Source of the DNA: Acuticoccus sp. MNP-M23
GTDB taxonomy: Bacteria > Pseudomonadota > Alphaproteobacteria > Rhizobiales > Amorphaceae
NCBI RefSeq assembly: GCF_031195445.1
Contig: NZ_CP133480.1
Coordinates: 2,032,001 to 2,096,000, forward strand
Length of the DNA stretch: 64,000 nt
Reading direction: 5' to 3'
A program made the translations under genes and the position numbers. How positions within the stretch are numbered: position 1 is the first letter of the stretch; each line of letters begins with the position of its first letter. The notes beneath the pieces were generated by a model. It was not told the DNA's origin, did not search any database, and was given only the letters and a program-made list of their open reading frames with translations. Of this stretch, positions 10,868-25,870 are shown in pieces.

Positions 10868-11650
10868 TCACGACATGATCAGGCCGCCGTCCACGTTGAT
10901 CGTCTGCCCGGTGATGTAGGCCGCATCCGCGCTGGCGAGGAAGGCGACGAGGCCCGCAACGTCGCGTCCTTCGCCGGCCCGCTTCATGGGGATGTTCTGC
11001 ACCCAGCTTTCCATCAGCGCACCCGGTGCGAAATCACCCAGCATCTTGCCCCAGACACGGTCGTTATAGTCCCACATGTCGGTCCTGATGATGCCGGGGC
11101 AGATGGCATTCACCGTGATGCCGTCCAGCGCCACTTCCTTGGCAAGGCTCTGCGTCAGCCCGACCACGCCAAACTTCGAGGCCGCATAATGCGGCGTGTA
11201 GATGAAACCGGCCCGCGCCTGACCCGACGCGGTGTTGACGAGAGCGCCCCCGTTGCCGGACTTGCGCATCAGGCGGATCGCCTCCTGACAGCACAGGAAC
11301 ACGCCCTTGGTGTTCACCTCCATGGTGGCGTCCCATTCCTGTTCGGTCAGGTCTTCCACCTTGGCGATGGTGATGATGCCCGCGTTCTGGATTGAAACGT
11401 CGACCCCGCCGAACTCTTTTTCGGCAAAGGCATAAAGCGCCTGCACCTGCTCCTTGTCGGTGACGTTGCAGACGAACCCCTTCACTGATGCGCCGGTGGC
11501 GTCCAGCGCGCGGGCGGCGTCCGTCACGTGCGCCTCCACCGAGGCGATGACGACGTTGGCGCCCTCGGCGGCGAAGCGCTCGGCCATCGCGTATCCGATG
11601 CCCTTGTTGCCGCCGGTGATGACGACGGTCTTGCCTGCAAATCGAGCCAT
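10868..11650 (-). CDS. Short-chain dehydrogenase/reductase (SDR), sugar/polyol operon
   Basis: 260-residue NAD(P)-dependent classical SDR. The cofactor loop is TGGNKGIG (about residues 11-18), NAG is at SIQNAGI, the catalytic Ser is in NTASG, and the YxxxK motif is HYAASKFG. The C-terminus (TGQTINVDGGLIM) is the usual classical end. It lies 5 bp after the SorC-type regulator and is the last gene of the transketolase-kinase-regulator operon, so it likely oxidises or reduces a polyol/ketose intermediate of that pathway. The exact substrate is unknown. Confidence 0.88.
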   Translation of the reverse strand: MARFAGKTVVITGGNKGIGYAMAERFAAEGANVVIASVEAHVTDAARALDATGASVKGFVCNVTDKEQVQALYAFAEKEFGGVDVSIQNAGIITIAKVEDLTEQEWDATMEVNTKGVFLCCQEAIRLMRKSGNGGALVNTASGQARAGFIYTPHYAASKFGVVGLTQSLAKEVALDGITVNAICPGIIRTDMWDYNDRVWGKMLGDFAPGALMESWVQNIPMKRAGEGRDVAGLVAFLASADAAYITGQTINVDGGLIMS

Positions 11651-11655
11651 GACGA

Positions 11656-12633
11656 TTATTCCGCTGCTTCTTGTTGGTTGTTTTCGGAGACGAGGCGCTC
11701 CGCGGTGAACTTGTCGGTGACCAGAAGATCGATGACGCCGGTGCGCAGGGCGCCGCGGATGGCGCGGGTCTTGGACTGGCCGCCGGCCAGTGCGATCACG
11801 CGGTCGATGGTCGAGAGTTCTTCGAGCGTCATGCCGATCACTCTTTCGTCCAGCGGGGTTTTCACGGAGCGCCCGTCGGCATCGAAGAAGCGCAGGCTCA
11901 TGTCGCCGACGCCGCCGGCTTCCTCCACCGCCGCCAGCTCGCGGGAGGTGAAGACGTTGCCGCTGCGCGCCAGCATGCCGGATGGCTCCATGGCGCCGAT
12001 GCCCACCACGGCCACGGTGATCTTGCCGAAGAGGTCCATCGTTTCGCGCACATAGGTGTCGCTGAGGAGGACCAGCTTGGCCTCGCGCGATTGCGCCACC
12101 CCCGGCGTGTTGAGGAGATGCGCTTCGGCGCCGGTCAGCTTGGCAAGGCGGGTGGTAAGCTGGTTGGCGTGGAACTGCACCGTGGGGTCGCCCATGCCGC
12201 CCAGCGTCTGGACGACGAACTTTGCCTTGCCCGATTTCATGGGGTGGATGTTGTCGACCATCTTCAAAATGGTTTCGGACCAGCTGGAGACGCCGATGAT
12301 TTCGCCCGGCTGGAGCGTCGCTTCCAGGAAATGGGCGGCCGCTTCGCCGATCCGCGTCATGATCGCGCGGTCGCGATCCTCCGTGCATTCCACGACGATG
12401 GCTTCGGCAATGCCGAAGACCCGGCGCAGGTCCGCCTCCAGGTCGGCATAGGTGCCCGATGGCGAGACCACCGTGGTGCGGACGATTTCCTCTTCCTGCG
12501 CACGCTTGAGCATCCGCGAAACGGTCGCCTGGGAAATCCGCAGATGCTTTGCAATATCGGCCTGCCGCTGGTGCTCCAGATGATACATCTGCGCGACGCG
12601 GGCGATCATCCGAAGTTCATTGAGGCGGGACAT
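11656..12633 (-). CDS. SorC/DeoR-type sugar-binding transcriptional regulator
   Basis: 325-residue regulator. An N-terminal Sigma70_r4/HTH-like domain (QRQADIAKHLRISQATVSR, about residues 21-40) is followed by a sugar-bind domain (GVSSWSETIL, VVGIGAMEPSGML), as in SorC, DeoR of Bacillus and LsrR. These proteins bind phosphorylated sugars and release or bind their operators. ATG 12633 follows a GGAAGG ribosome site; an upstream in-frame extension overlapping the kinase gene is rejected. A perfect GTGAATA-N2-TATTCAC palindrome lies 19 bp upstream of this ATG. Related sites precede both arms of the cluster, making this protein the likely regulator of the whole region. Confidence 0.9.
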   Translation of the reverse strand: MSRLNELRMIARVAQMYHLEHQRQADIAKHLRISQATVSRMLKRAQEEEIVRTTVVSPSGTYADLEADLRRVFGIAEAIVVECTEDRDRAIMTRIGEAAAHFLEATLQPGEIIGVSSWSETILKMVDNIHPMKSGKAKFVVQTLGGMGDPTVQFHANQLTTRLAKLTGAEAHLLNTPGVAQSREAKLVLLSDTYVRETMDLFGKITVAVVGIGAMEPSGMLARSGNVFTSRELAAVEEAGGVGDMSLRFFDADGRSVKTPLDERVIGMTLEELSTIDRVIALAGGQSKTRAIRGALRTGVIDLLVTDKFTAERLVSENNQQEAAE

Positions 12634-12652: not shown

Positions 12653-12668
12653 GTGAATAAATATTCAC
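12653..12668. promoter_or_regulatory. Predicted SorC-type operator, site A (perfect palindrome)
   Basis: GTGAATAAATATTCAC is a perfect inverted repeat with 7-bp arms around AA. It lies between the kinase stop codon and the regulator ribosome site. The core TGAATA-N2-TATTCA recurs at 15921-15934 and, with a degraded right arm, at 16070-16083. Binding by the adjacent SorC regulator is inferred. Confidence 0.68.
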
Positions 12669-14131
12669 TATACGCGGAGGACCGTGCGGGCAATCGCCTC
12701 TCGCCATGCATTGCGGGACGCGCGCACCATATCGGGAGCGGCCGTCGGATCGTGGGGCTGCCCGTGCGACGCAAATCCGGCAACGGTCGCAAGGTCGGGG
12801 AAGATCCCTGATGCCAGACCCGCAAGGTAGGCGGCGCCCATGGCGGATGCCTCCGAATCGCGGCAGGGGGCCACGGGATGGGACAGGCTGTCCGCCACAA
12901 GCTGCATGAGGAACGCGTTGGCACTGGGGCCGCCGTCGACAAAAAGGCGGCCGATGCCACCTCCCGCCGCCGTCATCGCGTCGTAAACGTCGGCGACCTG
13001 GTGGGCGAGGCTTTCGGCTGCCGCGCGCGCCACATGCGCAGGTTTCGCGCCGAACGAGAGGCCGCAGATCATCCCGCGGGCGTCCGCGTCCCAGTGGGGC
13101 GAGCCGAGCCCCACGTGCGCCGGAACGAGGCACACGCCGTTGGCGTCCGGAACCGATTGCGCAAGCGCCAGCAATTCATCGACGCCGGAAAGGCCCAGCA
13201 ATTCGGCCGACCAGGGAAAGATCGACGCGCTGACGAGAATGTTGCCCTCGAAGGCGAAGGTGGACTGGCCGTCCAGCGACCATGCGATGGTGGTGGTGAT
13301 CCCCTCCGGCGGCACGGTGAAGGCCGGAATTGTCGTCATCATCGACGACCCGGTGCCGAAGGTGATCTTGCCGTCGCCATTGCCGAAGGCGCCGTGCCCG
13401 AAAAGGGCGGCGTGGGAATCGCCAATGGCGGCGGCAATGGCGATACCGTCCGGCAGAACGCCGGTGCCCCGCGTGTGGCCGTAGATGTGCGCTGAATCGT
13501 GGACCGCCGGAAGGTACGCCGGGTCGACGCCGAAGAGCGCGCACAATGCGTCGTCCCACCGGCCTTCGGCGAGATTGAAGAGTTGCGTTCGCGCCGCATT
13601 CGAGCGGTCCGTGGCATGGACGGCCCCGCCCGAGAGCTGCCAGATCAGCCACGAATCCACCGTGCCGATGCAGATGTCAGTGTTTCCGCCGCCGTGGTTT
13701 TCCAGCAGCCACGCGGCTTTGGTCGGCGGGAACATGGGGTCGAGCGGGAGGCCGGTTCTTGCAATCACGTCCGGCTCGTGGCCGTTCTTGCGCAGCGCAT
13801 CGCAGGCGGCTGCCGTGCGCCGGCACTGCCATGTGACGACCGGGCCGAGGGGGGCGCCGGTGTTCCGGTCCCACATGAGGATGGATTCGCGCTGGTTGGA
13901 GATGCCGAGCGCCTCGATCGTCACGTCCGGCGCCTTGGCAAGGCAGCCGGCGATGGCCTTGCAGGTTGCGGTCCAGATCTTTTCGGCGTCCTGTTGGACC
14001 CAACCCGATTTCGGGTGCTCGATGGGCACGGGGGCCGAGCTGCTGGCGACGATCCTGCCCGCATCGTCGACCAGCACGGCCTTCGAATTGGTCGTCCCTT
14101 CGTCGATGGCGAGGATCACCTTGCGCGCCAC
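12668..14131 (-). CDS. FGGY-family carbohydrate kinase
   Basis: 487-residue ATP-dependent sugar/polyol kinase of the FGGY fold. Seen: the N-terminal ILAIDEGTTNSKAVLVD loop, the glycerol-kinase-like TDRSNAARTQLFNL, the second phosphate loop FGTGSSMM, and the adenosine motif FVDGGPSANAFLMQLV. Starts at GTG 14131, two bases after the transketolase stop; no ATG fits. It probably phosphorylates a ketose that the split transketolase then cleaves. In the known D-apiose route a FGGY apulose kinase (AplK) works with a split transketolase (AptAB), which is one candidate. A glycerol, xylulose or erythrulose kinase cannot be excluded. Confidence 0.87.
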   Translation of the reverse strand: MARKVILAIDEGTTNSKAVLVDDAGRIVASSSAPVPIEHPKSGWVQQDAEKIWTATCKAIAGCLAKAPDVTIEALGISNQRESILMWDRNTGAPLGPVVTWQCRRTAAACDALRKNGHEPDVIARTGLPLDPMFPPTKAAWLLENHGGGNTDICIGTVDSWLIWQLSGGAVHATDRSNAARTQLFNLAEGRWDDALCALFGVDPAYLPAVHDSAHIYGHTRGTGVLPDGIAIAAAIGDSHAALFGHGAFGNGDGKITFGTGSSMMTTIPAFTVPPEGITTTIAWSLDGQSTFAFEGNILVSASIFPWSAELLGLSGVDELLALAQSVPDANGVCLVPAHVGLGSPHWDADARGMICGLSFGAKPAHVARAAAESLAHQVADVYDAMTAAGGGIGRLFVDGGPSANAFLMQLVADSLSHPVAPCRDSEASAMGAAYLAGLASGIFPDLATVAGFASHGQPHDPTAAPDMVRASRNAWREAIARTVLRV

Positions 14132-14133
14132 GC

Positions 14134-15093
14134 CTAACTCTTGCGCTTTATCAGTGCGGCCGCACTGCTGGCGATACCCTCCGGTGACATCCCGAACTCG
14201 TCGAGCAGGAAGTTGGCCGAGCCGGTGGGCGCGAAGATGCCGGGGACGCCGAGGCGCTTCATCGGCACGGGGATCACGTCCACCACAACTTCGGCCACGG
14301 CACTGCCCAGACCGCCGAAGGTCGTATGCTCTTCGCAGGTGAGAATGGCGCCGGTGTCCTCTGCCGCTGCGACGATGGCGTCGGCGTCGATGGGGCGGAC
14401 CGACGCCATGTTGAGAACGCGGGCGGCAATGCCCTGCCCGTCGAGGATTGCGGCGGCCACCATTGCGCGGCAGGTGAGGGTGCCGTTTGCGATGATTGTC
14501 AGGTCCGCACCATCGCGCAGCATGTTGGCCTTGCCGAGCGTGAAGGCGTGATCCGCGGGCAAAAGGTCCGGCACGCCGACGCGGCTGAGCCGCAGGAAGC
14601 ACCCGCCCTGGTGGCTGGCGGCCCATCTGACGGCGGCGGCGGTCTCGATCCGGTCCGCCGGGGCGATCACCGGCACGTTGGGCAGTGCGCGGATCCAGGC
14701 AAAATCCTCGATGGAATGGTGCGTCGCGCCGAGTTCCCCGTAGGCCATACCGGCGCTGATGCCGACCAGCTTCACGTTGGTTTCGGAGTAGGCGACGTCG
14801 GCCTTGATCTGCTCCAGTGCGCGACCGGTGAGGAAGGGGGAGGCGGCGCAGACGAACGGGATCTTGCCGCCGTTGGCGAGCCCCGCCCCAACGCCGACCA
14901 TGTTCTGCTCGGCAATGCCGACATTGATCAGCCGTTCGGGAAATTTTTCGCGGAAGCCGGCGAGTTTGGACGAGCCGACCGAGTCGTTGCAGACGGCGAC
15001 AATGCTGTCGTCCGCAGCGCCGAGGCTCTCCAGCGTGGCGACAAAGGCGTCGCGGCAATCGTAGAGGCTGGCGTTTTCGAAGGGCGCGTTCAT
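14134..15093 (-). CDS. Transketolase, C-terminal (PYR plus C-terminal) subunit
   Basis: 319 residues, matching the second half of transketolase (Pyr and C-terminal domains). It includes the ThDP-activating glutamate region INVGIAEQNMVGVGAGLA (about residues 55-73) and the Transketolase_C stretch ILTCEEHTTFGGLGSAVAEV. With the partner gene at 15090 it would form the split alpha2-beta2 transketolase seen in many pentose and polyol gene clusters, moving a two-carbon unit from a ketose phosphate. The start ATG overlaps the partner's stop by 4 bp (ATGA), supporting translational coupling. Confidence 0.92.
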   Translation of the reverse strand: MNAPFENASLYDCRDAFVATLESLGAADDSIVAVCNDSVGSSKLAGFREKFPERLINVGIAEQNMVGVGAGLANGGKIPFVCAASPFLTGRALEQIKADVAYSETNVKLVGISAGMAYGELGATHHSIEDFAWIRALPNVPVIAPADRIETAAAVRWAASHQGGCFLRLSRVGVPDLLPADHAFTLGKANMLRDGADLTIIANGTLTCRAMVAAAILDGQGIAARVLNMASVRPIDADAIVAAAEDTGAILTCEEHTTFGGLGSAVAEVVVDVIPVPMKRLGVPGIFAPTGSANFLLDEFGMSPEGIASSAAALIKRKS

Positions 15094-15911
15094 CGTCCCG
15101 CCTCCTCAAGCTCGGCCATGGCCTGCTTGTACTGCTCCGCGCTGGGCACCTTGTGATGCCAGGCGACATTGTCGGACATGAACGAGATGCCCTGACCCTT
15201 GTTGGTGCGCGCGACTATGCACCTCGGTTTGCCCGGAACCACCTTGTCCGCCGCAAGCGCATTGCAGATCTGGTCCATGTCGTGGCCGTCGATTTCCTCC
15301 ACGGCCCAGCCGAAGGCTTCCAGCTTGGGCCGCAGGGGCGCCACGTCGTTGGTGTCGGCAACGCGTGCGCCCTGCTGGAGGCGGTTGTGGTCGATCACGA
15401 GCGTCAGGTTGTCCAGCTTGAACTGGGATGCGGCCATGATGGCTTCCCAGTTGGAGCCTTCCTGCATTTCGCCATCGCCGGTGATGACGAAGGTGCGCCA
15501 TTTTTCCCGGCTGAGCTTCGCCGCCACGGCCATGCCGACGGCAATGGGCAGCCCGTGGCCGAGCGGGCCCGTGTTGGTTTCGACGCCCGGCACCTTGGTG
15601 CGGGTGGGGTGCCCGTTGAGGCGTGAGTGGGGCTTGAGGAAGGTGGCGATTTCCTCCTTTGCGATGAAGCCCTTTTCGGCAAGGACGATGTAGAGCGCCA
15701 GCGCGGTGTGGCCCTTGCTCAGCACCAGCCGGTCGCGCTGCGGATCGCGCGGCGCATCCGGGTCGACCGACATGATCTTGAAATACAGCGCCGTCAGGAG
15801 GTCGGTGACGGACATTTCGCCGCCAATATGCCCCGCGCCAGCCTCATACACGGCCTGCAGGTCGCGCCGTCTGATCTTGTTGGCGATTGCTCGCAATTCG
15901 CTGGATTGCAT
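15090..15911 (-). CDS. Transketolase, N-terminal (PP) subunit
   Basis: 273-residue thiamine-diphosphate-binding half of a split transketolase. It has the N-terminal GHIGGEMSVTDLLTALYF segment, the metal/ThDP loop ITGDGEMQEGSNWEA (GDG-x-NE type, about residues 142-156), and the substrate-region NTGPLGHGLPIAVGMA. First gene of the minus-strand operon. ATG 15911 is preferred to a more upstream in-frame start because AGGA lies 7 bases before it and the region upstream is an operator palindrome. Usual full-length transketolases are about 650 residues; the two subunits here total 592. Confidence 0.92.
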   Translation of the reverse strand: MQSSELRAIANKIRRRDLQAVYEAGAGHIGGEMSVTDLLTALYFKIMSVDPDAPRDPQRDRLVLSKGHTALALYIVLAEKGFIAKEEIATFLKPHSRLNGHPTRTKVPGVETNTGPLGHGLPIAVGMAVAAKLSREKWRTFVITGDGEMQEGSNWEAIMAASQFKLDNLTLVIDHNRLQQGARVADTNDVAPLRPKLEAFGWAVEEIDGHDMDQICNALAADKVVPGKPRCIVARTNKGQGISFMSDNVAWHHKVPSAEQYKQAMAELEEAGR

Positions 15912-15920
15912 GGCTCGTCC

Positions 15921-15934
15921 TGAATATATATTCA
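15921..15934. promoter_or_regulatory. Predicted SorC-type operator, site B (perfect palindrome)
   Basis: TGAATATATATTCA is a perfect 14-bp inverted repeat with the same arms as site A (TGAATA/TATTCA). It ends against the ribosome site of the transketolase N subunit gene, so a bound regulator would cover the leader. Confidence 0.68.
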
Positions 15935-16069
15935 ATTAAAGTAAAACATGCATCAGATTGGAGTGTCAAGCGGTCCGTGGCGCGCTGTATGGCCGATGAG
16001 CCCATTAACCTGACGCTAAAGCCAGATTGACAGACTCCGCCTGATCCGGTACGAAATAAACAACGCTAT

Positions 16070-16083
16070 TGAATAAATATGCG
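16070..16083. promoter_or_regulatory. Predicted SorC-type operator, site C (one good half-site)
   Basis: TGAATAAATATGCG keeps the left arm, the AA spacer and TAT of the right arm found in site A, but loses the outer TCA. It lies 13 bp before the permease ATG and immediately before its GGGAGG ribosome site, the same position relative to the gene as sites A and B. Confidence 0.5.
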
Positions 16084-16096
16084 GTTGGGAGGTGTG

Positions 16097-17080
16097 ATGT
16101 CCGCTTCAACGTCGGCCGGGTCCGCGGGAAGACAGAGGATTTCCGAGTTCTTTTCGCTCAGCGGCGCCACCGGCCCGTTGATCGGCCTGATCCTCCTGTG
16201 CGCATTCCTGTCCTTTGCGACGGATTCCTTCCTGTCCTTCCGCAATTTCCTGAACATCGCCGACCAGATCACCGTTCTGGGCATCATGGCGGTGGGGATG
16301 ACGTTCGTGATCCTCATCGGCGGCATCGACCTCTCGGTGGGGTCGGTGCTCGCCCTGTCGATGATGGTGCTCGGCTTTCTCAACGTGACCGCCGGGCTGC
16401 CGATGACGGTCGCGATCCCCGGCGCACTGATGGCGGCCGCCGTCTGCGGCGCGATTTCGGGACTGCTGATCACGACGTTCAGGGTGCCGGCCTTCATTGC
16501 CACCCTGGCGATGATGTCGATCGCCCGCGGTGTCGCCAACATGATCACCAATGGCTCGCAGATCATCGGCTTCCCGGCATGGTTCAACATGGGCGCAATC
16601 ATCCGGCACTTCGGCTTTCTGACGATGACGGTCGCCGTGATGCTGGTGGTCTTCGCCGCCGCAATCCTGTTCCTGCGTGTGCGGGAAGAGGGCCGCTCGC
16701 TCTACGCCATCGGCGGCAATCCCGAAGTGGCACGCCTTGCCGGGATCAACGTCAAGCTGACGACCGTGCTCGTCTATACGGTGTGCGCGCTGCTGTCCGG
16801 CCTTGCAGGCGTCTTGCTCGCCGCAAGGCTCGACTCGGTTCAGCCAAGCTCCGGTGTTGCCTACGAGCTTGACGCCATTGCCGCGGTGGTCATCGGGGGC
16901 ACCAGCCTGTCCGGCGGCACGGGCGGTGTCGTCGGCACGCTGATCGGCGTCCTTGTGATCGGCGTCCTGCGCAACGGGCTGAACCTCTTGAGTGTGTCGC
17001 CCTTCCTGCAGGCGGTCATCATCGGCCTCGTCATCGTCCTTGCCGTGGCGGCGGAGACGTTCAAGCGCCGCCGAAACTGA
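16097..17080 (+). CDS. Ribose-type ABC transporter permease (RbsC-like)
   Basis: 327-residue inner-membrane permease of the BPD_transp_2 family. It has about 8-10 helices and the family motif around AIGGNPEVARLAGINVK, the cytoplasmic coupling loop, followed by GGTSLSGGTGGVVGTLIGV. ATG 16097 is preferred because GGGAGG (16087-16092) sits 4 bp before it. An ATG at 16079 lies inside operator site C and has no ribosome site. First gene of a permease, binding protein, ATPase, SDR operon. The substrate is probably the pentose or polyol processed by the divergent kinase/transketolase genes. Confidence 0.92.
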   Translation: MSASTSAGSAGRQRISEFFSLSGATGPLIGLILLCAFLSFATDSFLSFRNFLNIADQITVLGIMAVGMTFVILIGGIDLSVGSVLALSMMVLGFLNVTAGLPMTVAIPGALMAAAVCGAISGLLITTFRVPAFIATLAMMSIARGVANMITNGSQIIGFPAWFNMGAIIRHFGFLTMTVAVMLVVFAAAILFLRVREEGRSLYAIGGNPEVARLAGINVKLTTVLVYTVCALLSGLAGVLLAARLDSVQPSSGVAYELDAIAAVVIGGTSLSGGTGGVVGTLIGVLVIGVLRNGLNLLSVSPFLQAVIIGLVIVLAVAAETFKRRRN

Positions 17081-17196
17081 ACTCAGGGGCCGCGCATCAT
17101 CGGCGTGCCCCCCAAACGAATGGTCCGAGCAGTCGGGCTGCAAGAGGTCCTATCCCCAGCGAGCCGGACCCAAACATCAATGAGGAGACGTTCAAG

Positions 17197-18138
17197 ATGA
17201 CCAATCTCAAGAAACTGCTGGCAGCGGCTGCGGTCGTCGCCCTTGCCGGGCCTGCCGCGGCGCAAGGCGTTGGCGGTGTCTCGAAAATCGGCCTCGCGGT
17301 CCCCAACCTGCAGGCTGACTTCTTCAACCAGATCAAGCTGGGCATCGAAGGCTACGCCGAAAAGCTGGGCATCGAAGTCATTGTCGTGGACGCCAAGAAC
17401 GACACGGCGACCCAGGTCAGCCAGGTGCAGGACCTGATCACCCAGGGCATCGACGCCTTCATCTACATTCCGGCCGGTGCGGCTGCCGCTGCGGTGCCGA
17501 CCCGTCTGGCACGGGCCGAAGGCATCCCCGTCATCAACGTTGACCGCGAGCCCGAAGGCGCCGCCGGCGACACCGTGATCTACGGCGAAAACGTGCGGTC
17601 CGCCTACGAGGTCTGTGACCACATCATCGGTCTGGCCGAGGGCGAGGGCAAGATGGTCATCATCCACGGCCAGAAGGGGACCACCCCCGAAGTCCAGCGC
17701 TTCGAAGGCTGCAAGATGGCCATCGACGAAAACCCGGGCATCGAACTGGTCGCCCAGCAGTGGAGCCAGCAGTGGTCGCCCGATGAAGGGTTCCAGATCG
17801 CGCAGAACATGCTGCAGGCCAACGGCGACATCAAGATCATCTTCGGTCAGGCCGACGGCCTTGCCATGGGTGCAGCCAAGGCCGTGGAAGTGGCCGGGCT
17901 TGCTGATCAGGTGATCGTTGGTGGCTATGATGGCGATGGCGCCGCGCTCGAGTCTCTGGTGGCTTGCGACACCCCGTTCATCGTGACGGCAACACAGAGC
18001 ACGCAGGCCATGGGCGTTCTCGCGGTCAACGCGGCCATTGCAGTTGCCAACGGCGCTTCGGTTCCGGCGCGCCAGATCCCGAACGCTGTGCTCACCACCT
18101 GCGACAACGCCGCGGCATTCGTCGAAAAGCACCCCTGA
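17197..18138 (+). CDS. Ribose-type ABC transporter periplasmic binding protein (RbsB-like)
   Basis: 313-residue type I periplasmic sugar-binding protein. The signal peptide is residues 1-23 (LAAAAVVALAGPAAAQG). The Peripla_BP_4 domain begins at KIGLAVPNLQADFFNQI, has NVDREPEGAAGDTVIYGEN (typical DRE/ND hinge residues), and ends with the TQSTQAMG segment. A GAGGAG site precedes ATG 17197. The ligand is unknown; context suggests a sugar alcohol or a pentose. Four closely spaced cysteines near the C-terminal half (CDHIIG, EGCKMA, ACDTP, TTCDN) are unusual and could form two disulfides. Confidence 0.93.
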   Translation: MTNLKKLLAAAAVVALAGPAAAQGVGGVSKIGLAVPNLQADFFNQIKLGIEGYAEKLGIEVIVVDAKNDTATQVSQVQDLITQGIDAFIYIPAGAAAAAVPTRLARAEGIPVINVDREPEGAAGDTVIYGENVRSAYEVCDHIIGLAEGEGKMVIIHGQKGTTPEVQRFEGCKMAIDENPGIELVAQQWSQQWSPDEGFQIAQNMLQANGDIKIIFGQADGLAMGAAKAVEVAGLADQVIVGGYDGDGAALESLVACDTPFIVTATQSTQAMGVLAVNAAIAVANGASVPARQIPNAVLTTCDNAAAFVEKHP

Positions 18139-18177
18139 GCACACGGTTTCCGGCACGCTGATACAAAGGGCGATCCC

Positions 18178-19671
18178 ATGACACGTGAAGGCACGGCGCC
18201 GATCCTGGCCCTGCGGAACATCAAGAAGTCCTACGGGCCGATTGAGGTGCTGCGGGGCATTGATCTGGATTGCCATGCCGGCGAGGTCACGGCGTTGCTT
18301 GGCGAGAACGGTGCCGGCAAATCCACAGTGTCGAACATCATCTCCGGGACGGTCCCCCCTTCGGCCGGAAAAATGCAATGGCAGGGCGCGCGCTACGCGC
18401 CCGCCAACCCCCGCGAAGCCATGGATGCGGGCGTGGGCATGATCCACCAGGAGCTTCACCTGCTCCCGCATCTGTCCATTGCCGAAAACGTGTTCGTGGG
18501 CCGCTACCCGACACGGGCGGGGATGGTCGACCGCAAGACGATGGAAGAGCGGGCCCACGAGGGCCTCCAGCGGCTCGGCCTCGAAATTTCGCCGCGCCGG
18601 CTGGTGCAGGGCCTGTCGACGGCCAACCAGCAGCTGATCGAGATCGCCAAGGCGCTGACGTTGAAGGCCCGGCTTCTGATCCTCGACGAGCCCACCGCGG
18701 CCCTTGGCGGTGACGAAACGTCCAGGCTGTTCGAGCAGATCGCGCGCCTGAAGGAAGAAGGCGTCGGGATCATCTACATTTCCCACCGTCTTGAAGAGAT
18801 CAAGCGGATCGCCGACCGCATCGTGGTGATGCGTGACGGCGAAAAGGTGCAGGAATTCGAGAGCGCCGATGTTCCCGTGCGCACCATCGTGGAGGCCATG
18901 GTCGGCCGCAGTCTCGACCGGATGTTTCCGCAAATTCCGGTGCCGAAGGACGAAACCGTTCTGGAGGTGCGCGACCTCAAGTCGGCGCTGGGCAGTTTTT
19001 CCGGCGTCAACTTCAAGGTTCGCAAGGGCGAAATCTTCGGCATTGCCGGACTTGTGGGCGCCGGGCGGACCGAGCTGGTGCGCGCGATCGCAGGCGTCGA
19101 TCCGGTGTCCGGCGGAAAGGTGCTGCTGAACGGCGACGAGATCACCCCGCGCAAACCCTCAGATGCAATCCGGAACGGCATTGTCCTCGTCCCCGAGGAC
19201 CGCAAGCTGCAAGGCCTCGTCCTCAAGCATTCCATTGCGGAGAACATCGCCTACGCAAACATGAATCAAGTCTCTGCCAAGGGCTGGATCGCCGGGCGCA
19301 GGATCAGATCGTTCGCCGACCAAAACATCGCGAAGTTCGGCGTGAAGGGCAAGGCGCAGCAGAACGCGGACGAAATGTCGGGCGGCAACCAGCAGAAGGT
19401 GGTGATTGCCAAATGGCTGGCCCGCAACCCACGGGTGGTGGTTCTGGACGAGCCCACCCGCGGGATCGATGTCGGCGCCCGGTCCTCGATCTATGACATC
19501 ATCGTCGGCCTTGCGAATGAAGGTGTGTCGGTGATCGTCGTCAGCTCCGACCTTGAGGAGGTGCTTGGCGTCTCCAATCGCATCATGGTCATGGCGCAAG
19601 GCAAGCAGGCCGGAACCCTGAACCGCGACGAGGCCAACGACGTCTCGATCATGGAACTGGCCACCATCTGA
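18178..19671 (+). CDS. Ribose-type ABC transporter ATP-binding protein (RbsA-like)
   Basis: 497-residue fused double ATPase. The first domain has Walker A LLGENGAGKST (about residues 39-49) and Walker B LLILDEPTAALGG. Its signature (QGLSTANQQLIEIA) departs from LSGGQ, as usual for domain 1 of this family. The second domain has the GLVGAGRTEL degenerate P-loop, signature MSGGNQQKVVIAK and Walker B VVLDEPTRGIDVGA. It energises the upstream permease, and its operon position is conserved with RbsA/XylG-type systems. Confidence 0.94.
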   Translation: MTREGTAPILALRNIKKSYGPIEVLRGIDLDCHAGEVTALLGENGAGKSTVSNIISGTVPPSAGKMQWQGARYAPANPREAMDAGVGMIHQELHLLPHLSIAENVFVGRYPTRAGMVDRKTMEERAHEGLQRLGLEISPRRLVQGLSTANQQLIEIAKALTLKARLLILDEPTAALGGDETSRLFEQIARLKEEGVGIIYISHRLEEIKRIADRIVVMRDGEKVQEFESADVPVRTIVEAMVGRSLDRMFPQIPVPKDETVLEVRDLKSALGSFSGVNFKVRKGEIFGIAGLVGAGRTELVRAIAGVDPVSGGKVLLNGDEITPRKPSDAIRNGIVLVPEDRKLQGLVLKHSIAENIAYANMNQVSAKGWIAGRRIRSFADQNIAKFGVKGKAQQNADEMSGGNQQKVVIAKWLARNPRVVVLDEPTRGIDVGARSSIYDIIVGLANEGVSVIVVSSDLEEVLGVSNRIMVMAQGKQAGTLNRDEANDVSIMELATI

Positions 19672-19703
19672 CCCCCCGCAATCGCAACTGCCGGAAACCC
19701 CAC

Positions 19704-20495
19704 ATGCCCGACATTTTTCTCAATGCGCCAGCGCTGTTCGATCTCTCCGGCCGCACGGCGCTGGTCACAGGCGCAGGCAGCGGGATCGGGCAGCGCATCG
19801 CCATCGGTCTGGCGCAGTGCGGGGCCGACGTGGCGCTGGTGGATCGGCGCACCGATGGCGGCCTTTCCGACACCGCGAGCCTCGTTGCAGCAGCCGGCCG
19901 CAAGTCGGTTCAGGTGGCTGCCGACGTGACGTCTGCCGACGCGCTGGCCGAGGCGGTTGCGCAGACCGAAGCCGAGCTTGGTCCGCTGACGCTCGCGGTC
20001 AACGCCGCCGGGATTGCCAACGCAAACCCCTGCGAGGAGATGGGCGAGGACCAGTACCAGACCCTGATGGACATCAACCTCAAGGGCGTCTGGTTGTCGT
20101 GCCAGGCGGAGGCGCGCGCCATGCTGGCGCACGGCAAGGGCGGTTCCATCGTCAACATCGCGTCAATGTCGGGCGTCATCGTGAACCGCGGCCTCAACCA
20201 GGTGCACTACAACGCATCGAAGGCCGGCGTCATTCACATGTCGAAGTCGATGGCGATGGAATGGGTTGGCCGCGGCATTCGCGTGAATTCGATTTCGCCC
20301 GGCTACACCGCAACTCCCATGAACACCCGCCCCGAAATGGTCCACCAGACCAAGGAATTCGAAAACCAGACGCCGATGCAGCGAATGGCCGACGTCAACG
20401 AGATGGTCGGCCCGGCGGTGTTCCTTCTGTCGGACGCAGCATCCTACTGCACCGGGGTCGATCTTCTGGTCGACGGCGGCTTCTGCTGCTGGTAG
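19704..20495 (+). CDS. Short-chain dehydrogenase/reductase (SDR), transporter operon
   Basis: 263-residue classical SDR. The cofactor loop is VTGAGSGIG (about residues 22-30), an acidic NAD-type residue region is ALVDRRTD, NAAG is present, the catalytic Ser is in NIASMSG, YxxxK is HYNASKAG, and the C-terminus is GVDLLVDGGF. It resembles polyol dehydrogenases (sorbitol, arabitol, threitol types) by length and by the MPDIFLNAPALFDLSG start. Last gene of the ABC operon, convergent with the tartrate dehydratase gene 19 bp away. It likely oxidises the imported polyol or reduces a ketose. Confidence 0.87.
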   Translation: MPDIFLNAPALFDLSGRTALVTGAGSGIGQRIAIGLAQCGADVALVDRRTDGGLSDTASLVAAAGRKSVQVAADVTSADALAEAVAQTEAELGPLTLAVNAAGIANANPCEEMGEDQYQTLMDINLKGVWLSCQAEARAMLAHGKGGSIVNIASMSGVIVNRGLNQVHYNASKAGVIHMSKSMAMEWVGRGIRVNSISPGYTATPMNTRPEMVHQTKEFENQTPMQRMADVNEMVGPAVFLLSDAASYCTGVDLLVDGGFCCW

Positions 20496-20514: not shown

Positions 20515-21678
20515 TCAGGCCAGTTCGCGCATCACCGCAATCAACTTCGACTTTGCCTCGAAGCCGACGCCGGGGATCTGCGGCAAGCCGACCTGGCTGT
20601 TGTTGACGGCAATGCCGTCGGCAAAGCCGCCGAAGGGCTGGAACACGTCCGGGTAGCTCTCGTTGCCGCCAAGGCCGAGCCCGGCGGCAATGTTGAGCGA
20701 CATCTGGTGCCCCCCGTGGGGCACCGCCCGCCGCGGCGACCAGCCTAGCTCTTCCATCACCTTCAGAGTGCGCAGATACTCCACCAGCCCGTAGGAGAGC
20801 GCGCAGTCGAACTGGAGGATGTCGCGGTCGGGCCGCATCCCGCCGTAGCGCAGGAGGTTGCGCGCGTCCTGGTGGCTGAAGAGGTTCTCGCCGGTGGCAA
20901 GCGGGCCTGAGTAGACCTCGCCGAGCCGGGCCTGAAGGTCGTAGTCCAGCGGGTCGCCGGCTTCCTCGTACCAGTGGAGGCCGTAGGGTTCGAGCGCCTT
21001 GGCGTAGGCAAGCGCGGTCTCAAGGTCGAACCGGCCGTTGGCGTCGACGGCGAGGCGGCGGCCTTCGCCCACCACCTCCAGCACCGCCTCGATGCGGGCA
21101 AGGTCTTCGGCGAGCGGGGCGCCGCCGATCTTCATCTTCACCACGTCGTAGCCCCGCCCGAGATAATCCTCCATCTCGGCCTTCAGCTTCCCGTGGTCCT
21201 TGCCGGGGTAGTAGTAGCCGCCGGCAGCGTAGACCCATACGCTGTCGTCCGCCTCGCCGCCGCGGAAACGGTCCGCCAAAAGGCGCCACAGCGGCACGCC
21301 GGCAATCTTGGAGACGGCGTCCCAGACGGCCATGTCGATGGTGCCGACCGCGACGGAGCGTTCGCCGTGCCCACCCGGCTTCTCGTTTGTCATCATGGTG
21401 TCCCAGATGGCGAACGGGTCGAGGTTGTCGTTTTCTTCATCCGCCAGCGTGGCGGGGTCTGCCTCCATGATGCGCGGGATGAAGCGGTCGCGCATGAGCG
21501 GCCCTTGCCCATAGCGGCCGTTGGAGTTGAAGCCGTAGCCCACCACCGGCTTGCCGTCCCGGATCACGTCGGTGATCACCGCGACAACGGAGCAGGTCAT
21601 CTTCGAGAAGTCGATGTAGGCGTTGGCGATGGGGGAGGCGATGGAAGCCGTCGTCTCGCGGATTTCGGTGATGCGCAT
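20515..21678 (-). CDS. tarD: D(-)-tartrate dehydratase, enolase superfamily
   Basis: 387-residue enolase-superfamily enzyme that would dehydrate D-tartrate to oxaloacetate. The sequence follows the structurally known Bradyrhizobium TarD closely (NAYIDFSKMT, GFNSNGRYGQG, MTNEKPGGHGERSVAVGTID). Expected catalytic positions are all present: general bases K183 (in KMKIGG) and H321, metal ligands D212, E238 and E264, the His-Asp dyad partner D291, and K100. These sit one residue off the TarD numbering I recall, apart from K100 (two). Ends beside a convergent SDR gene and is last in a tartrate operon containing two tartrate/malate-type dehydrogenases and a Tct transporter. Confidence 0.93.
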   Translation of the reverse strand: MRITEIRETTASIASPIANAYIDFSKMTCSVVAVITDVIRDGKPVVGYGFNSNGRYGQGPLMRDRFIPRIMEADPATLADEENDNLDPFAIWDTMMTNEKPGGHGERSVAVGTIDMAVWDAVSKIAGVPLWRLLADRFRGGEADDSVWVYAAGGYYYPGKDHGKLKAEMEDYLGRGYDVVKMKIGGAPLAEDLARIEAVLEVVGEGRRLAVDANGRFDLETALAYAKALEPYGLHWYEEAGDPLDYDLQARLGEVYSGPLATGENLFSHQDARNLLRYGGMRPDRDILQFDCALSYGLVEYLRTLKVMEELGWSPRRAVPHGGHQMSLNIAAGLGLGGNESYPDVFQPFGGFADGIAVNNSQVGLPQIPGVGFEAKSKLIAVMRELA

Positions 21679-21694
21679 GGCGGTCCTTCCGGGC

Positions 21695-22768
21695 TTACGC
21701 GAGGGCGTCGGTGATGGCCTTGCCGCAGGCTTCGGTGTTGGCGGTGCCGCCGAGGTCGCGGGTGCGCAGACCCTTGTCGGTGAGGCTGGCTTCGATGGCA
21801 GTGAGGATGCCGGCGGCAGCTTCGGCGTGCCCGAGGTGCTCCAGCATCATCGCGCCGGCCCAGATCTGGCCGATGGGGTTGGCGATGCCCTGGCCCGCAA
21901 TGTCCGGCGCCGAGCCGTGGACCGGCTCGAAGAGGGACGGATAGTCCTTCTCCGGGTTGATGTTGCCGGATGGCGCAATGCCGATGGTGCCGGTGCAGGC
22001 GGGCCCGAGGTCGGACAGGATGTCGCCGAAGAGGTTGGAGGCGACCACAACGTCGAACCGGTCCGGGTTGAGGACGAAGTGGGCGGCCAGAATGTCGATG
22101 TGGTACTTGTCCCACGTGATGTCCGGATAGTTCTTCGCCATCTCCTCAACCCGCTCGTCCCAGTAGGGCATGGTGATGGAGATGCCGTTTGACTTGGTGG
22201 CGGAGGTCAGCTTCTTGCGCGGCCTCGTCTGCGCAAGTTCGAAGGCGTAGCGCAGCACGCGGTCGATGCCGACGCGGCTCATCACCGTCTCCTGCATGAC
22301 GATTTCGCGCGGCGTGTTCGGGTACATCTTGCCGCCGACGGAGGAATATTCGCCCTCCGTGTTCTCGCGCACGATCCACATGTCGATATCGCCGGGGCCG
22401 CGGCCCGCCAGCGGCGAGGGCACGCCCGGCATCAGCCGCGCGGGGCGAAGGTTGACGTACTGGTCGAAGTCGCGCCGGAAGTGGATCAGCGAGCCCCACA
22501 GCGAGATGTGGTCCGGCACCGTGGCGGGCCAGCCGACGGCGCCGAAATAGATGGCGTCGTGGCTGCCGACCTGTTCGCGCCAGTCCTCCGGCATCATACG
22601 GCCGTGCTTGGCGTAGTAGTCGCACGAGGCGAAGTCGAACGTGTCGAACTGGAGATCGAGGTCGTAGCGCCTGGCGGCGGCCTCCAGCACGCGCAGGCCC
22701 TCGGGGACGACCTCCTTGCCGATGCCGTCGCCGGCGATGACGGCGATTTTCAGCCGGTTCTCACGCAT
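21695..22768 (-). CDS. Tartrate dehydrogenase/decarboxylase-like beta-decarboxylating dehydrogenase (TtuC-type)
   Basis: 357-residue isocitrate/isopropylmalate-dehydrogenase-family enzyme. Seen: IAGDGIGKEVVPEG at the N-terminus, the substrate loop RENTEGEYSSVGG, the catalytic Lys region TKSNGI, metal-binding Asps in ASNLFGDILSDLGP, and the NAD adenine loop HGSAPDIAGQGIANPIG. The Asp-containing SDLGPACTGTIGIAPSGN stretch fits the TtuC/DmlA branch, which oxidises tartrate, D-malate or meso-tartrate with NAD. Lies 16 bp before the tartrate dehydratase gene in the same operon; which diastereomer it prefers cannot be read from sequence. Confidence 0.88.
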   Translation of the reverse strand: MRENRLKIAVIAGDGIGKEVVPEGLRVLEAAARRYDLDLQFDTFDFASCDYYAKHGRMMPEDWREQVGSHDAIYFGAVGWPATVPDHISLWGSLIHFRRDFDQYVNLRPARLMPGVPSPLAGRGPGDIDMWIVRENTEGEYSSVGGKMYPNTPREIVMQETVMSRVGIDRVLRYAFELAQTRPRKKLTSATKSNGISITMPYWDERVEEMAKNYPDITWDKYHIDILAAHFVLNPDRFDVVVASNLFGDILSDLGPACTGTIGIAPSGNINPEKDYPSLFEPVHGSAPDIAGQGIANPIGQIWAGAMMLEHLGHAEAAAGILTAIEASLTDKGLRTRDLGGTANTEACGKAITDALA

Positions 22769-22779
22769 GGGTGTCGTCC

Positions 22780-23856
22780 TCAGTCGTTGCGGCCGCGGAT
22801 GGCGGCGATCACCGCGTCCGTCACCTGACGCGTGGTTGCCTTGCCGCCAAGGTCGGGCGTGTGGAGGGCGGGATCGGCGGTGATGGTCTCGACGGCGTGC
22901 ATCAGCCGGTCGGCGGCGGGCTTCTCGCCAAGATGCTCCAGCATCATCGCGGCGGTCCAGAAGGTCGCGACCGGGTTGGCGATCCCCTTGCCGGTGATGT
23001 CGAACGCGGAGCCGTGGATCGGCTCGAACATCGACGGCGTGTCCCGCTCCGGGTTGAGGTTGGCGGTCGGCGCGATGCCGATGGAGCCGGCGAGCGCTGC
23101 CGCAAGGTCGGACAGGATGTCGGCGTGGAGGTTGGTGGCGACGATGGTGTCGAGCGAGCCCGGCTTCAGCGTCATGCGCACGGTCATCGCGTCGACCAGC
23201 ATCTTGTCCCACGTCACCTCGGGAAAGTCCTTCGCGACCTCTGCCGCGATCTCGTCCCACAGCACCATCCCGTGGCGCTGCGCGTTGGACTTGGTGACGA
23301 CCGTGAGGAGCTTGCGGGGGCGGGACTGCGCCAGCTGGAAGGCGAAGCGCATGATCCGCTCGACGCCGGCTCTGGTGAAGATCGAGACGTCCGTTGCGAT
23401 TTCCAGCGGCAGGCCGGGGTGGGAGCGGCCGCCCTGTCCGGCATATTCGCCCTCGGAGTTTTCGCGCACGATCACCCAGTCGAGCTCCGGGCCGTCCACG
23501 TGGCGCAGCGGGCTCTGGATGCCGGGGAGGATGCGGGTTGGGCGGACGTTGGCGTACTGGTCGAGCGGCTGGCAGATGGCGAGGCGCAGGCCCCATAAGG
23601 TGAGGTGGTCGGCAACGTCGGGCGCACCGACGGCGCCGAACAGGATGCTGTCGAACGCGCGCAGCTGGTCGGCGCCGTCCGCCGGCATGAACGCGCCGGT
23701 CTGCTTGAAACGGTCGGTGCCCCAGTCGAAATTTTCGACGTCGAGGGTGAAGCTGCCGTCGCGCAACGCCAGCACGTCCAGCACCTCGAGGGTGGCGTCG
23801 ACCACTTCCACGCCGATGCCGTCGCCCGGGATCGCGGCAATCTTGTGCGTTCGCAT
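22780..23856 (-). CDS. Second tartrate/D-malate-type beta-decarboxylating dehydrogenase
   Basis: 358-residue paralogue of the preceding enzyme. It has IPGDGIGVEVVDATLEV, RENSEGEYAGQGG, TKSNAQRHGM, TNLHADILSDLAAALAGS and EPIHGSAFDITGKGIANP. Compared with its neighbour, the active-site segments are alike but many surface stretches differ, so this is an old duplication. The active-site loop TKSNAQRHG (versus TKSNGISIT next door) suggests a different substrate or stereoisomer; D-malate or L/meso-tartrate are candidates. 11 bp separates the two genes. Confidence 0.87.
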   Translation of the reverse strand: MRTHKIAAIPGDGIGVEVVDATLEVLDVLALRDGSFTLDVENFDWGTDRFKQTGAFMPADGADQLRAFDSILFGAVGAPDVADHLTLWGLRLAICQPLDQYANVRPTRILPGIQSPLRHVDGPELDWVIVRENSEGEYAGQGGRSHPGLPLEIATDVSIFTRAGVERIMRFAFQLAQSRPRKLLTVVTKSNAQRHGMVLWDEIAAEVAKDFPEVTWDKMLVDAMTVRMTLKPGSLDTIVATNLHADILSDLAAALAGSIGIAPTANLNPERDTPSMFEPIHGSAFDITGKGIANPVATFWTAAMMLEHLGEKPAADRLMHAVETITADPALHTPDLGGKATTRQVTDAVIAAIRGRND

Positions 23857-23871
23857 TTGTACTCCGAAGAT

Positions 23872-25857
23872 CTAGAAAAGGACGCCGTTCGGCATCCGCA
23901 GAAGAAGAACATTGGCCATCAGCCACCAGAAGCCGGCGACGATGGTGACACCCGTCGTGGCCCAGATGAGCCACGTTTTCAGGCCCGGCCGGTCGTAGTC
24001 GGCAACCACCATGGTGGCGAAGAAGGCCGCAAGGCTGGTGACGAAGAAGCCGATGACGGGAAGCAGCACCACGTAGGCGAGCATGATGGCGCCAAGGCCG
24101 ATGCGCCGCGCCGGTCCCCCGCCGCTGCCCGCCGCCGGCACGGCAACGGGCGTGCGCCCGGCAAGGCCCAGCGCGATGAACGCCAGCGAGAGCACGATGA
24201 GGATCACGCCGATGGTGGACGGGAACACGGCACCCAGCGGCGAAAGGCTTTGGGTGCCAAGGAGAATGAGCACGCCGACGCCGACGAACGCGGCGCAGAT
24301 GACCATGCCCGGCACGTCGCGCCCGCGCTCCGTCACTTTCGCCGGGGCCGTTGTGCCCGCTGCCCGTGCCGCCTTTTTCTTCGCCATCTGCTCCGCGACA
24401 ATGGGGTAGGCCAGCGTCAGCACCGCGGCGATGATGATGCCAATGCTGATCGGGCGGCCGAAGAACATCTCCGCCAGCCGGTTGGACGCATTGCCGATGA
24501 GGTAGGTCTGCACGAACCCCTGTTCGGCGATGGAGCCCAGCACGAGGCCGAGGACGATGGGCGAGGGGGCGAAGCCGTAGCGCGCCAGCACCCAGGCGAT
24601 GAGGCCGAGGCCGACCATCAGCTGCGCGTCGTCCACGTTGGAGTGGATCGCGAACGAGCCGATGATGGTGAGGAGCGCCACGGTCGGCGCCAGCACCGCC
24701 TTGGGGATCTTGATCATCGTGCCATAGGCGTAGCGGCCGAGGAGCATCCCGATGGGGAGCATCAGGATGGTTGCGATCAGAAGGCCCCAGATGAAGGTGT
24801 AGACGACGCCCGCCTCGTTGGAGAACAGCGTCGGCCCGATCTTGATGCCTTGCACCAGAAGCGCGCCCAGAATGATCGCGTCGGGTGGCGTGCCGGGGAT
24901 GCCGAGCACCAGCGTCGGGATGAAGCCGCCGCCGACGGTGGCGTTGTTGGCCGCCTCCGTGGCGATCACGCCTTCGGGCGCACCCTTGCCGAAGCGCTCC
25001 GGCGTCTTGGATGCACGCCGCGCTTCGGTATAGGAGACCAGCCCCGCGATGGAGCCGCCCGCGCCCGGCAAAATGCCGATGACGGTGCCGATGATCGATG
25101 AGCGGACGATATTGAACTTGCCGGCCCAAGCGATCCGCCAGCTTTCCGGCAGGCGCAGGCCCCCGGTTTCGGCGGGCTTCAGGTGCGGGTCGCGGGTGGC
25201 GACAAGGTCGAGAAGGACGGGAATGCAGTAAAGGCCGATGATGGCGGACGTGAGGTCGATGCCGCCCAGGAAGCGCTGCATGCCCAGCGTATAGCGCACG
25301 TCGCCGCCGACGACGGCAACGCCGATCATCGACAGGAACAGGCCGATGCAGGCGCCGATCAGGCCCTTCAGCGTATTGCCGACCGAGAGCGCGGCAATCA
25401 GCGTGAGGCCGAAGATGGCGAGCCAGAAATATTCCGTCGGGCCGAATGCGAGCGCCACCCTGGCAAGCGGCGGGGCCAGCAAAAGGAGGCTGATCGCGCC
25501 GACGATGCCGCCGACCACCGAGGCGATGGTGGCCAGAGAGATGGCAAGCCCGCCATCGCCGCGCTTGGCCATGGGAAAGCCGTCGAACGTGGTTGCGATG
25601 GCCGACGGGGTGCCCGGCGTGTTGACGAGAATGGCGGCATAGGCGCCGCCATAGATCGCGCCGGTGTAGATCGCGCCGAGGGCGATGAGGCCCGCGGCGG
25701 GATCCATGGTGAAGGTGAAGGGGACCAGTACGGCCACCGCCATGGTCGCGGAGAGCCCGGGAAGGGCGCCCACCACCGTGCCGAGGATGACGCCGACAAG
25801 CGCCAGCATCAGGTTGAACGGCGTCAGCGCGTCCCAGAGGTAGCCGATGATCTCCAT
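23872..25857 (-). CDS. Tripartite tricarboxylate transporter permease, TctA-TctB fusion
   Basis: 661-residue inner-membrane protein joining both membrane subunits of a tripartite tricarboxylate transporter. Residues about 1-490 are TctA (about 10-12 helices), with the conserved GALPGLSATMAVAVLVPFT near residue 30 and GILPGAGGSIAGLVSY near residue 265. A basic linker (MAKKKAARAAGTTAPAK, about residues 489-505) leads to a four-helix TctB/DUF1468 domain (about residues 510-655). In the Salmonella prototype TctA and TctB are separate genes. ATG 25857 lies 13 bp after the tctC stop. Likely imports tartrate or a related C4 acid using a cation gradient. Confidence 0.9.
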   Translation of the reverse strand: MEIIGYLWDALTPFNLMLALVGVILGTVVGALPGLSATMAVAVLVPFTFTMDPAAGLIALGAIYTGAIYGGAYAAILVNTPGTPSAIATTFDGFPMAKRGDGGLAISLATIASVVGGIVGAISLLLLAPPLARVALAFGPTEYFWLAIFGLTLIAALSVGNTLKGLIGACIGLFLSMIGVAVVGGDVRYTLGMQRFLGGIDLTSAIIGLYCIPVLLDLVATRDPHLKPAETGGLRLPESWRIAWAGKFNIVRSSIIGTVIGILPGAGGSIAGLVSYTEARRASKTPERFGKGAPEGVIATEAANNATVGGGFIPTLVLGIPGTPPDAIILGALLVQGIKIGPTLFSNEAGVVYTFIWGLLIATILMLPIGMLLGRYAYGTMIKIPKAVLAPTVALLTIIGSFAIHSNVDDAQLMVGLGLIAWVLARYGFAPSPIVLGLVLGSIAEQGFVQTYLIGNASNRLAEMFFGRPISIGIIIAAVLTLAYPIVAEQMAKKKAARAAGTTAPAKVTERGRDVPGMVICAAFVGVGVLILLGTQSLSPLGAVFPSTIGVILIVLSLAFIALGLAGRTPVAVPAAGSGGGPARRIGLGAIMLAYVVLLPVIGFFVTSLAAFFATMVVADYDRPGLKTWLIWATTGVTIVAGFWWLMANVLLLRMPNGVLF

Positions 25858-25870
25858 TGTCGGCGCCGGC

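Follow-up and report, generated by a model that had tools for sequence, protein, structure and literature searches.

Three short sites in a sugar gene cluster of Acuticoccus sp. MNP-M23 form one operator family, through which a single local repressor very probably turns off two divergent operons. The cluster lies in a window of 64,000 nucleotides (NZ_CP133480.1, positions 2,032,001 to 2,096,000; coordinates below are those of the window). Its minus-strand operon encodes, in this order, the N half and the C half of a split transketolase, an FGGY kinase, a SorC-type regulator and a short-chain dehydrogenase (SDR), while its plus-strand operon (16097-20495) encodes the permease, sugar-binding protein and ATPase of an ATP-binding cassette (ABC) transporter and a second SDR. 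The best explanation, which we consider likely as a whole, is that the three sites are operators of a SorC/DeoR-subfamily repressor, which would block initiation at the two divergent promoters and act as a roadblock at the site inside the minus-strand operon.

Operator sites and their conservation

A sequence-only reading of the window had described one operator family serving the regulator's own gene and both divergent arms. The three sites were found where it had placed them: GTGAATAAATATTCAC at 12653-12668 before the regulator gene, TGAATATATATTCA at 15921-15934 before the gene of the transketolase N half (tktN), and TGAATAAATATGCG at 16070-16083 before the permease gene. The distances to the start codons, reported as 9-19 bp, were 19 bp for the regulator (start 12633), 9 bp for tktN (start 15911) and 13 bp for the permease if the ATG at 16097 is taken as its start. 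The first two sites had also been called perfect palindromes, which is correct for TGAATATATATTCA (14/14) but not for GTGAATAAATATTCAC, where perfect 7-bp arms flank a mismatched AA centre (14/16). TGAATAAATATGCG matches its own reverse complement at 8/14 positions and has a single good arm.

In the window's own genome (5,158,509 bases, 5.16 Mb), the exact pattern TGAATANNTATTCA has only two occurrences, both of them in this cluster, and the reversed control has none; about 0.006-0.01 exact matches are expected given the composition of the window. With up to two mismatches, 31 places were found vs 6 for the control. The consensus derived from orthologs, TGMATAWWTATKCA, matched four places genome-wide with at most one mismatch (control, 0), and three of them are the sites described here; the fourth (L004:1501) has no recognised sugar gene within its 3-kb stretch and was treated as a chance match. 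Within the window, a count with up to three mismatches was uninformative (3 matches vs 2.83 expected from shuffles; not significant).

The case for genuine sites rests most of all on their conservation in orthologous loci. From a scan with the regulator, the best 80 of 108 related stretches were taken, which by their titles come mostly from the orders Rhodobacterales and Hyphomicrobiales. A permease facing tktN, together with the kinase and the regulator, is kept in 77 of the 80; these 77 and the window make up the main set of 78 loci; those with similar divergent regions were collapsed, leaving 51 representatives. The three excluded stretches lack the full cluster; upstream of the regulator, L031 has an exact site, L057 a partial one and L052 no exact match. 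A palindromic expectation-maximisation (EM) search was run on the representatives, separately for the 70 bp before the regulator, the 90 bp before tktN and the 90 bp before the permease (the last two overlap by 2-5 bp in L037, L039, L044 and L079, where the divergent region is 175-178 bp long). The resulting motifs, GTGAATAatTATTCAC, nTGAATAatTATTCAn and nTGaATAatTATtCAn, respectively, are the same palindrome with the consensus TGMATAWWTATKCA, and their log-likelihoods were 462.2, 423.3 and 427.6, compared with 24.4-32.7 for six shuffled sets each.

When the whole loci were scanned with the averaged EM matrix at a score of at least 11, both divergent sites were found in 78/78 loci and the regulator site, in the same in-operon arrangement, in 68/78 (41/51 representatives). 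At a score of at least 15, each divergent site was present in 50/51 representatives and the regulator site in 41/51. Matches elsewhere in the representatives were at chance level (15 vs 16.4 per shuffled set over all bases). The motif is thus present upstream of the orthologous operons, which supports the single operator family proposed earlier. By sequence, it is a palindromic operator of the TGAA...TTCA type near the regulated promoters, as is characteristic of the SorC/DeoR subfamily. The variant arm TATGCA lies mostly on the gene side at the divergent promoters (20 vs 4 and 19 vs 4 of the one-sided cases), and both arms of the regulator site carry the standard letter in 36/41 cases.

Another 36 stretches, 29 after seven duplicates were dropped, were scanned at a score of at least 13; they may include close relatives of the training loci and are not fully independent. 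Both divergent sites were present in 15/15 loci of the same layout and the kinase-regulator site in 8/15; of the others, L109 has a site before a second regulator copy and six have none. Seven loci are rearranged, with the regulator (54-59% identical) divergent from tktN; all seven have sites in the region between these genes, and the centre of the site closest to the regulator is 66-82 bp upstream of the regulator start (7/7). The rearranged loci thus keep the operators beside the regulator, indicating that the operators follow the regulator gene and its targets. Among the remaining seven loci, L106 and L131 have a site before tktN, L128 has one unplaced site, and L113, which contains the kinase and regulator only, has the regulator site plus another. 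Two close regulator copies occur in two genomes (L109; L103/L106); in L109, SDR1 separates the two, their starts are about 2 kb from each other, and the operator precedes the second copy.

Two divergent promoters and a site inside the operon

Alignment on the operators showed that both divergent promoters have a TTGACA-N16-18 architecture, with TTGAC 5' of the site in 50/51 representatives on the transketolase arm and 51/51 on the permease arm, vs 2/41 at the regulator site. In the transketolase promoter the -10 immediately precedes the main operator; in the permease promoter it is about 19 bp upstream of the operator. If transcription starts seven bases after the -10, the main operators would begin at about +1 and about +7, respectively. 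Both promoters also carry a degraded second copy of the operator 18 bp upstream of the main one. At this offset, the 51 representatives had on average 9.67/14 (transketolase) and 8.80/14 (permease) consensus matches, compared with 4.45 at control offsets, and no other offset except that of the main site scored higher (next best, -14 with 8.06 on the transketolase arm and -21 with 7.49). In the transketolase copy the left arm is the best preserved part; in the permease copy, the outer letters of the right arm and part of the left arm are. Since the -10 sits in opposite parts of the two second copies, it cannot by itself explain them. At these two sites the operators cover or directly follow conserved TTGACA promoters, with a second copy that overlies the -10, which is more simply read as a block of initiation; a strong and a degraded copy at each promoter would fit one polymerase-excluding tetramer per promoter, provided that the protein uses both copies.

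The regulator sites are different. They form the strongest class of palindromes, with a mean of 14.29/16 vs 12.94 and 12.92 at the divergent sites and at least 15/16 matches in 20/41 vs 6/51 and 2/51 cases (rank tests, 2e-6 and 1e-7, without correction for relatedness). No sigma-70-like promoter was detected upstream of them: 0/41 reach a score of at least 9/12, compared with 48/51 and 34/51 at the divergent sites, and the mean of 6.12/12 is close to the 5.83 of random windows inside the kinase gene. A second copy was not detected at these sites either (4.00 vs 4.43 for the control). In 21/41 representatives the first base of the 16-base site is the last of the kinase stop codon; in the other 20 the site starts between 11 bases before and 2 after it. 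The kinase stop is TAG or TAA in 37/41 representatives with the operator and TGA in 6/10 without it, and in 15/41 the stop codon lies inside the operator itself (offset -7); the operator and the stop codon therefore seem to constrain each other.

Given its position within the operon and the lack of a detectable promoter, the regulator site would most simply and most likely serve as a roadblock to read-through, and a lone, stronger palindrome would suit a site with no neighbour to rely on. The sequence-only reading had suggested repression by a block of elongation; at the two divergent sites this gives way to the promoters found there, and it stands as the best reading at the regulator site only.

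The regulator, the proposed mechanism and its rivals

Residues 63-315 of the regulator match the sugar-binding effector domain PF04198 (2.6e-67), in line with the approximately 250 residues of this domain in the SorC family, and near full-length structure matches were obtained to SorC, DeoR and LsrR. Its N-terminal helix-turn-helix (HTH; residues 3-58) aligns with the HTHs of the same three proteins; all Pfam HTH models scored below their cut-offs on the regulator, and no CggR chain was present among the 18 structure matches of the HTH. The regulator therefore appears to fit the SorC/DeoR subfamily, with a homeodomain-like HTH of 50-60 residues, unlike the winged HTH of about 100 residues in CggR; the effector domain starts at residue 63. 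Against the DeoR ortholog model NCBIfam NF053881 it scored 211 bits (cut-off, 420), and judged by its sequence it is a relative of DeoR, not DeoR itself. The recognition-helix stretch SQATVSR is present in 73/78 regulators, with close variants in four and a shifted start in one row. Two regulators of the later loci, L125 and L126, have PQARVSR instead, and both loci are without the operator, which is possibly a natural switch of specificity.

We propose that the three sites are the operators of the repressor encoded at 11656-12633, an assignment to which the co-conservation of sites and regulator points. Without inducer, a tetramer would occupy each divergent promoter, one dimer on the strong palindrome (about +1 to +20) and the other on the degraded copy that overlies the -10, 18 bp farther upstream, and initiation would be blocked for both the split-transketolase/kinase/regulator/SDR operon and the ABC-transporter/SDR operon. 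An operator near +1 plus a second copy over the -10 fits a SorC/DeoR-type tetramer that occludes initiation. At the third site, the bound repressor would most likely stall RNA polymerase reading through from the kinase gene, leading to less regulator and SDR1; in this way the repressor may limit its own gene, as negative autoregulation by roadblock. The inducer, probably a phosphorylated intermediate of the pathway, would free all sites on binding. A more elaborate version, with two kinds of operator, namely helically phased, loopable 18-bp pairs and a promoterless, near-ideal single palindrome (roadblock, or loop anchor 3.3 kb off) that sets the repressor level, is rather doubtful.

Several observations weigh against the proposed mechanism. 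In the window itself, the -10s of the divergent promoters are weak (3-4 of 6), a promoter search of the divergent region returned no promoter-like site, and the permease-arm site is the poor palindrome described above. The kinase-regulator site is missing in 10/51 representatives and 7/15 of the later same-layout loci, and is hence not essential. Three of the 29 later loci (L103, L125 and L126) have no site at a score of at least 13. Moreover, single half-operators of DeoR are not bound, according to the DeoR passages of PMC11229326; if both halves are needed here too, the lone third site would be weak, barring compensation by its better palindrome or by a partner farther away. The pitch of 18 bp also differs from the half-operator spacing of about 20 bp that can be deduced from the 39-bp operator of DeoR.

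The main rival concerns the third site, which could belong to an internal promoter of an unusual type. That it is instead the operator of an ordinary internal promoter for the regulator and SDR1, with classic autoregulation of initiation, is an idea to which we give a minor share of the probability. An internal promoter would suit the strong operator that directly precedes the regulator start in 68/78 loci, the rearranged clusters, in which the regulator has its own upstream region with the operator, and the TATAG that many loci have at the kinase stop codon, immediately before the site. However, TATAG is equally produced by the end of the coding sequence plus the stop codon, and the promoter scores and the TTGAC counts at this site speak against such a promoter. 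Somewhat less probable again is that one tetramer bridges both divergent operator pairs into a repression loop, with a spacing constrained to an integral number of helical turns. The SorC regulators known so far are tetrameric (PMC11229326), and the distances between the main operators do cluster in the 51 representatives (137-141, 146-151, 158-161, 167-170 and 183-195 bp; outliers 107, 133 and 305), with a best period of 10.6 bp within the range of 6-20 bp (R 0.61, n=50 with 305 omitted; 0/5000 smoothed nulls). Yet relatedness inflates this test: when each distinct spacing was counted once (n=25), the null fraction was 0.041, and for 15 phylogenetically independent pairs the mean cosine at 10.5 was 0.18 (null fraction 0.041). 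If the last cluster is taken as 190-195, then 107, 133, 183, 184 and 187 fall outside the clusters, with 305 left out, and the tandem second copies offer each tetramer a nearer partner. As the helical phase is strong on the raw data and weak once relatedness is handled, we keep the loop as a rival only.

Two readings that would replace the regulator or the DNA-binding role altogether are far less probable. Proximity of the regulator to the motif is not proof of binding, and some other transcription factor might bind the motif; this is very unlikely, considering that three of the four consensus matches in the own genome are in this cluster, that the operators track the regulator gene in the rearranged clusters, and that DeoR, a SorC-family protein, has an operator with the same TGAA arm. 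The absence of sites next to the two PQARVSR regulators points the same way, although it probably reflects a single evolutionary event and is weak evidence. Still less credible, and close to negligible, is a role of the palindromes as RNA hairpins at the ribosome sites, which their position 9-19 bp before start codons might suggest. It is the letters that are fixed, not the pairing, and the variable arm position keeps a possible pair in only 83/143 sites; the stems would be very rich in A+U, and transcripts of the transketolase arm, which would start at or inside the main operator, may carry part of it only. Initiation block at the divergent promoters with a roadblock inside the operon remains the reading that we prefer.

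The gene cluster and the rest of the window

The features of the cluster are listed in the table. The first three minus-strand genes overlap or nearly touch (gaps of -4 and 2 bp), and the gap between the kinase and the regulator is 34 bp. The best PDB match of tktN was 6yak, the N-terminal component of a split-chain transketolase, and the top structure matches of the sugar-binding protein were of sugar- and ribose-binding types, with modest similarity. Relatives of the kinase on plasmids (77 records) were all below 60% identity, and the 12 listed among them had generic names only. Apiose/apulose, which has a split-transketolase pathway, was considered as a substrate and set aside, a search on it having given nothing usable; a search of open-access papers for split transketolases likewise found nothing. 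An MR_MLE enolase-superfamily gene and a TctA/TctB transporter gene adjoin the cluster (20515-25950); the former is not kept with it (a single 25% match in the 80 loci). Elsewhere in the window, an open frame of 2290 residues (56742-63614, plus strand) has a signal-peptide-like start and is glycine-rich within the first 586 residues read; it has no Pfam or NCBIfam match and is possibly a large secreted or autotransporter-like protein.

Table. Operators, promoters and genes of the sugar cluster, in window coordinates
Feature	Position	Strand	Details
SDR1, short-chain dehydrogenase	10868..11650	-	directly after regulator; adh_short, adh_short_C2
SorC-family regulator, probable SorC/DeoR subfamily	11656..12633	-	325 residues; Pfam Sugar-bind
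Operator 3 (regulator site)	12653..12668	.	in-operon; starts on last base of kinase stop codon
FGGY carbohydrate kinase	12668..14131	-	nearest glycerol kinase models, scores below their cut-offs
Split transketolase, C-terminal half	14134..15093	-	Transket_pyr, Transketolase_C
Split transketolase, N-terminal half (tktN)	15090..15911	-	first gene of operon; Transketolase_N
Operator 1, main copy, transketolase arm	15920..15935	-	core TGAATATATATTCA; 9 bp before tktN; 78/78 loci
Operator 1, degraded second copy ATGCATGTTTTACTTT	15938..15953	-	18 bp upstream of main copy; overlaps -10
Transketolase-operon promoter	15940..15969	-	TTGACA 15964-15969; spacer 17-18; -10-like TTTTAC/TTTACT at about 15940-15946
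ABC-operon promoter	16027..16055	+	TTGACA 16027-16032; 17-bp spacer; -10-like TACGAA 16050-16055
Operator 2, degraded second copy ACGAAATAAACAACGC	16051..16066	+	18 bp upstream of main copy; overlaps -10
Operator 2, main copy, permease arm	16069..16084	+	core TGAATAAATATGCG; 13 bp before permease; 78/78 loci
CUT2-type sugar ABC permease	16097..17080	+	first gene of divergent operon; BPD_transp_2; best model match ribose permease, below cut-off
Periplasmic sugar-binding protein	17197..18138	+	relative of ribose-binding proteins; family matches
Sugar ABC ATPase	18178..19671	+	family matches
SDR2, short-chain dehydrogenase	19704..20495	+	NF004774 above cut-off

For a sugar cluster of many rhizobia and other alphaproteobacteria that is so far uncharacterised, these results supply an operator code (TGMATAWWTATKCA), define a local regulon and outline a promoter architecture that can be tested. 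The natural variation in sites and spacing offers a ready test of SorC tetramers on paired versus single operators, and could also be used to probe autoregulation of an in-operon repressor by roadblock.

Comparison with known systems

This kind of operator is already known; the single site inside the operon and the sites paired at 18 bp are the interesting parts. Among the open-access listings searched for SorC regulons, none was seen to describe this operator, and the motif strings retrieved no paper there. Known SorC/DeoR proteins form dimers of dimers, and a tetramer of Bacillus subtilis DeoR occupies a bipartite operator containing TTGAACAAAATTTCAA, the 39-bp operator being a palindrome plus a weaker part near the dra-nupC-pdp promoter (PMC11229326, passages on DeoR). 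The system described here resembles it in subfamily, in the palindromic TGAA/TTCA arms, and in having a palindrome plus a weaker second part near a promoter. The second copy here lies at 18 bp over the -10, whereas the DeoR operator is at -60 to -21 in that account. The arms are TGAACA in DeoR and TGMATA here, the base-contacting R39 of DeoR aligns with Gln in our reading of the alignment, and the present system has two divergent promoters and an in-operon site.

EryD, the repressor of the erythritol operon of Ochrobactrum and Brucella, is also of the SorC type, and its operon contains an FGGY kinase; the ery operon is not known to include a split transketolase. Like the repressor proposed here, EryD is an alphaproteobacterial protein; it represses a sugar-alcohol operon and is a homotetramer; its operator eryO, as presented in the relevant part of PMC10190533, is 29 bp long, lies between the -35 and -10 and does not contain a TGMATA...TATKCA palindrome. 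For the third site, a precedent comes from LacI, a protein of another family, with the difference that the operator here precedes the regulator gene and follows the kinase gene. In lac, an operator is located at the end of lacI. Escherichia coli LacI autoregulates by roadblock at O3, as stated in the pertinent passages of PMC3711431.

A further parallel is the Rhizobium leguminosarum cluster RL2718-2722, which has two transketolase genes beside a CUT2 transporter (PMC3333776, sections on these genes). The stretch from strain 3841 (L095) carries the same cluster with all three sites and, from its gene content, would be RL2718-2722; the R. leguminosarum cluster with raised expression in the alfalfa rhizosphere is very likely a member of this group of sugar clusters. 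Those sections of PMC3333776 describe neither a regulator nor an operator for it and call RL2720 a binding protein (RbsA in the corresponding entry of PMC8407117). According to the same sections, RL2720-2 are up 4- to 25-fold with arabinogalactan and not with galactose or arabinose, and the alfalfa rhizosphere raises RL2720, RL2719 (one of the two adjacent transketolases) and the SDR RL2725. A shared operator predicts joint induction of both arms, as reported for R. leguminosarum.

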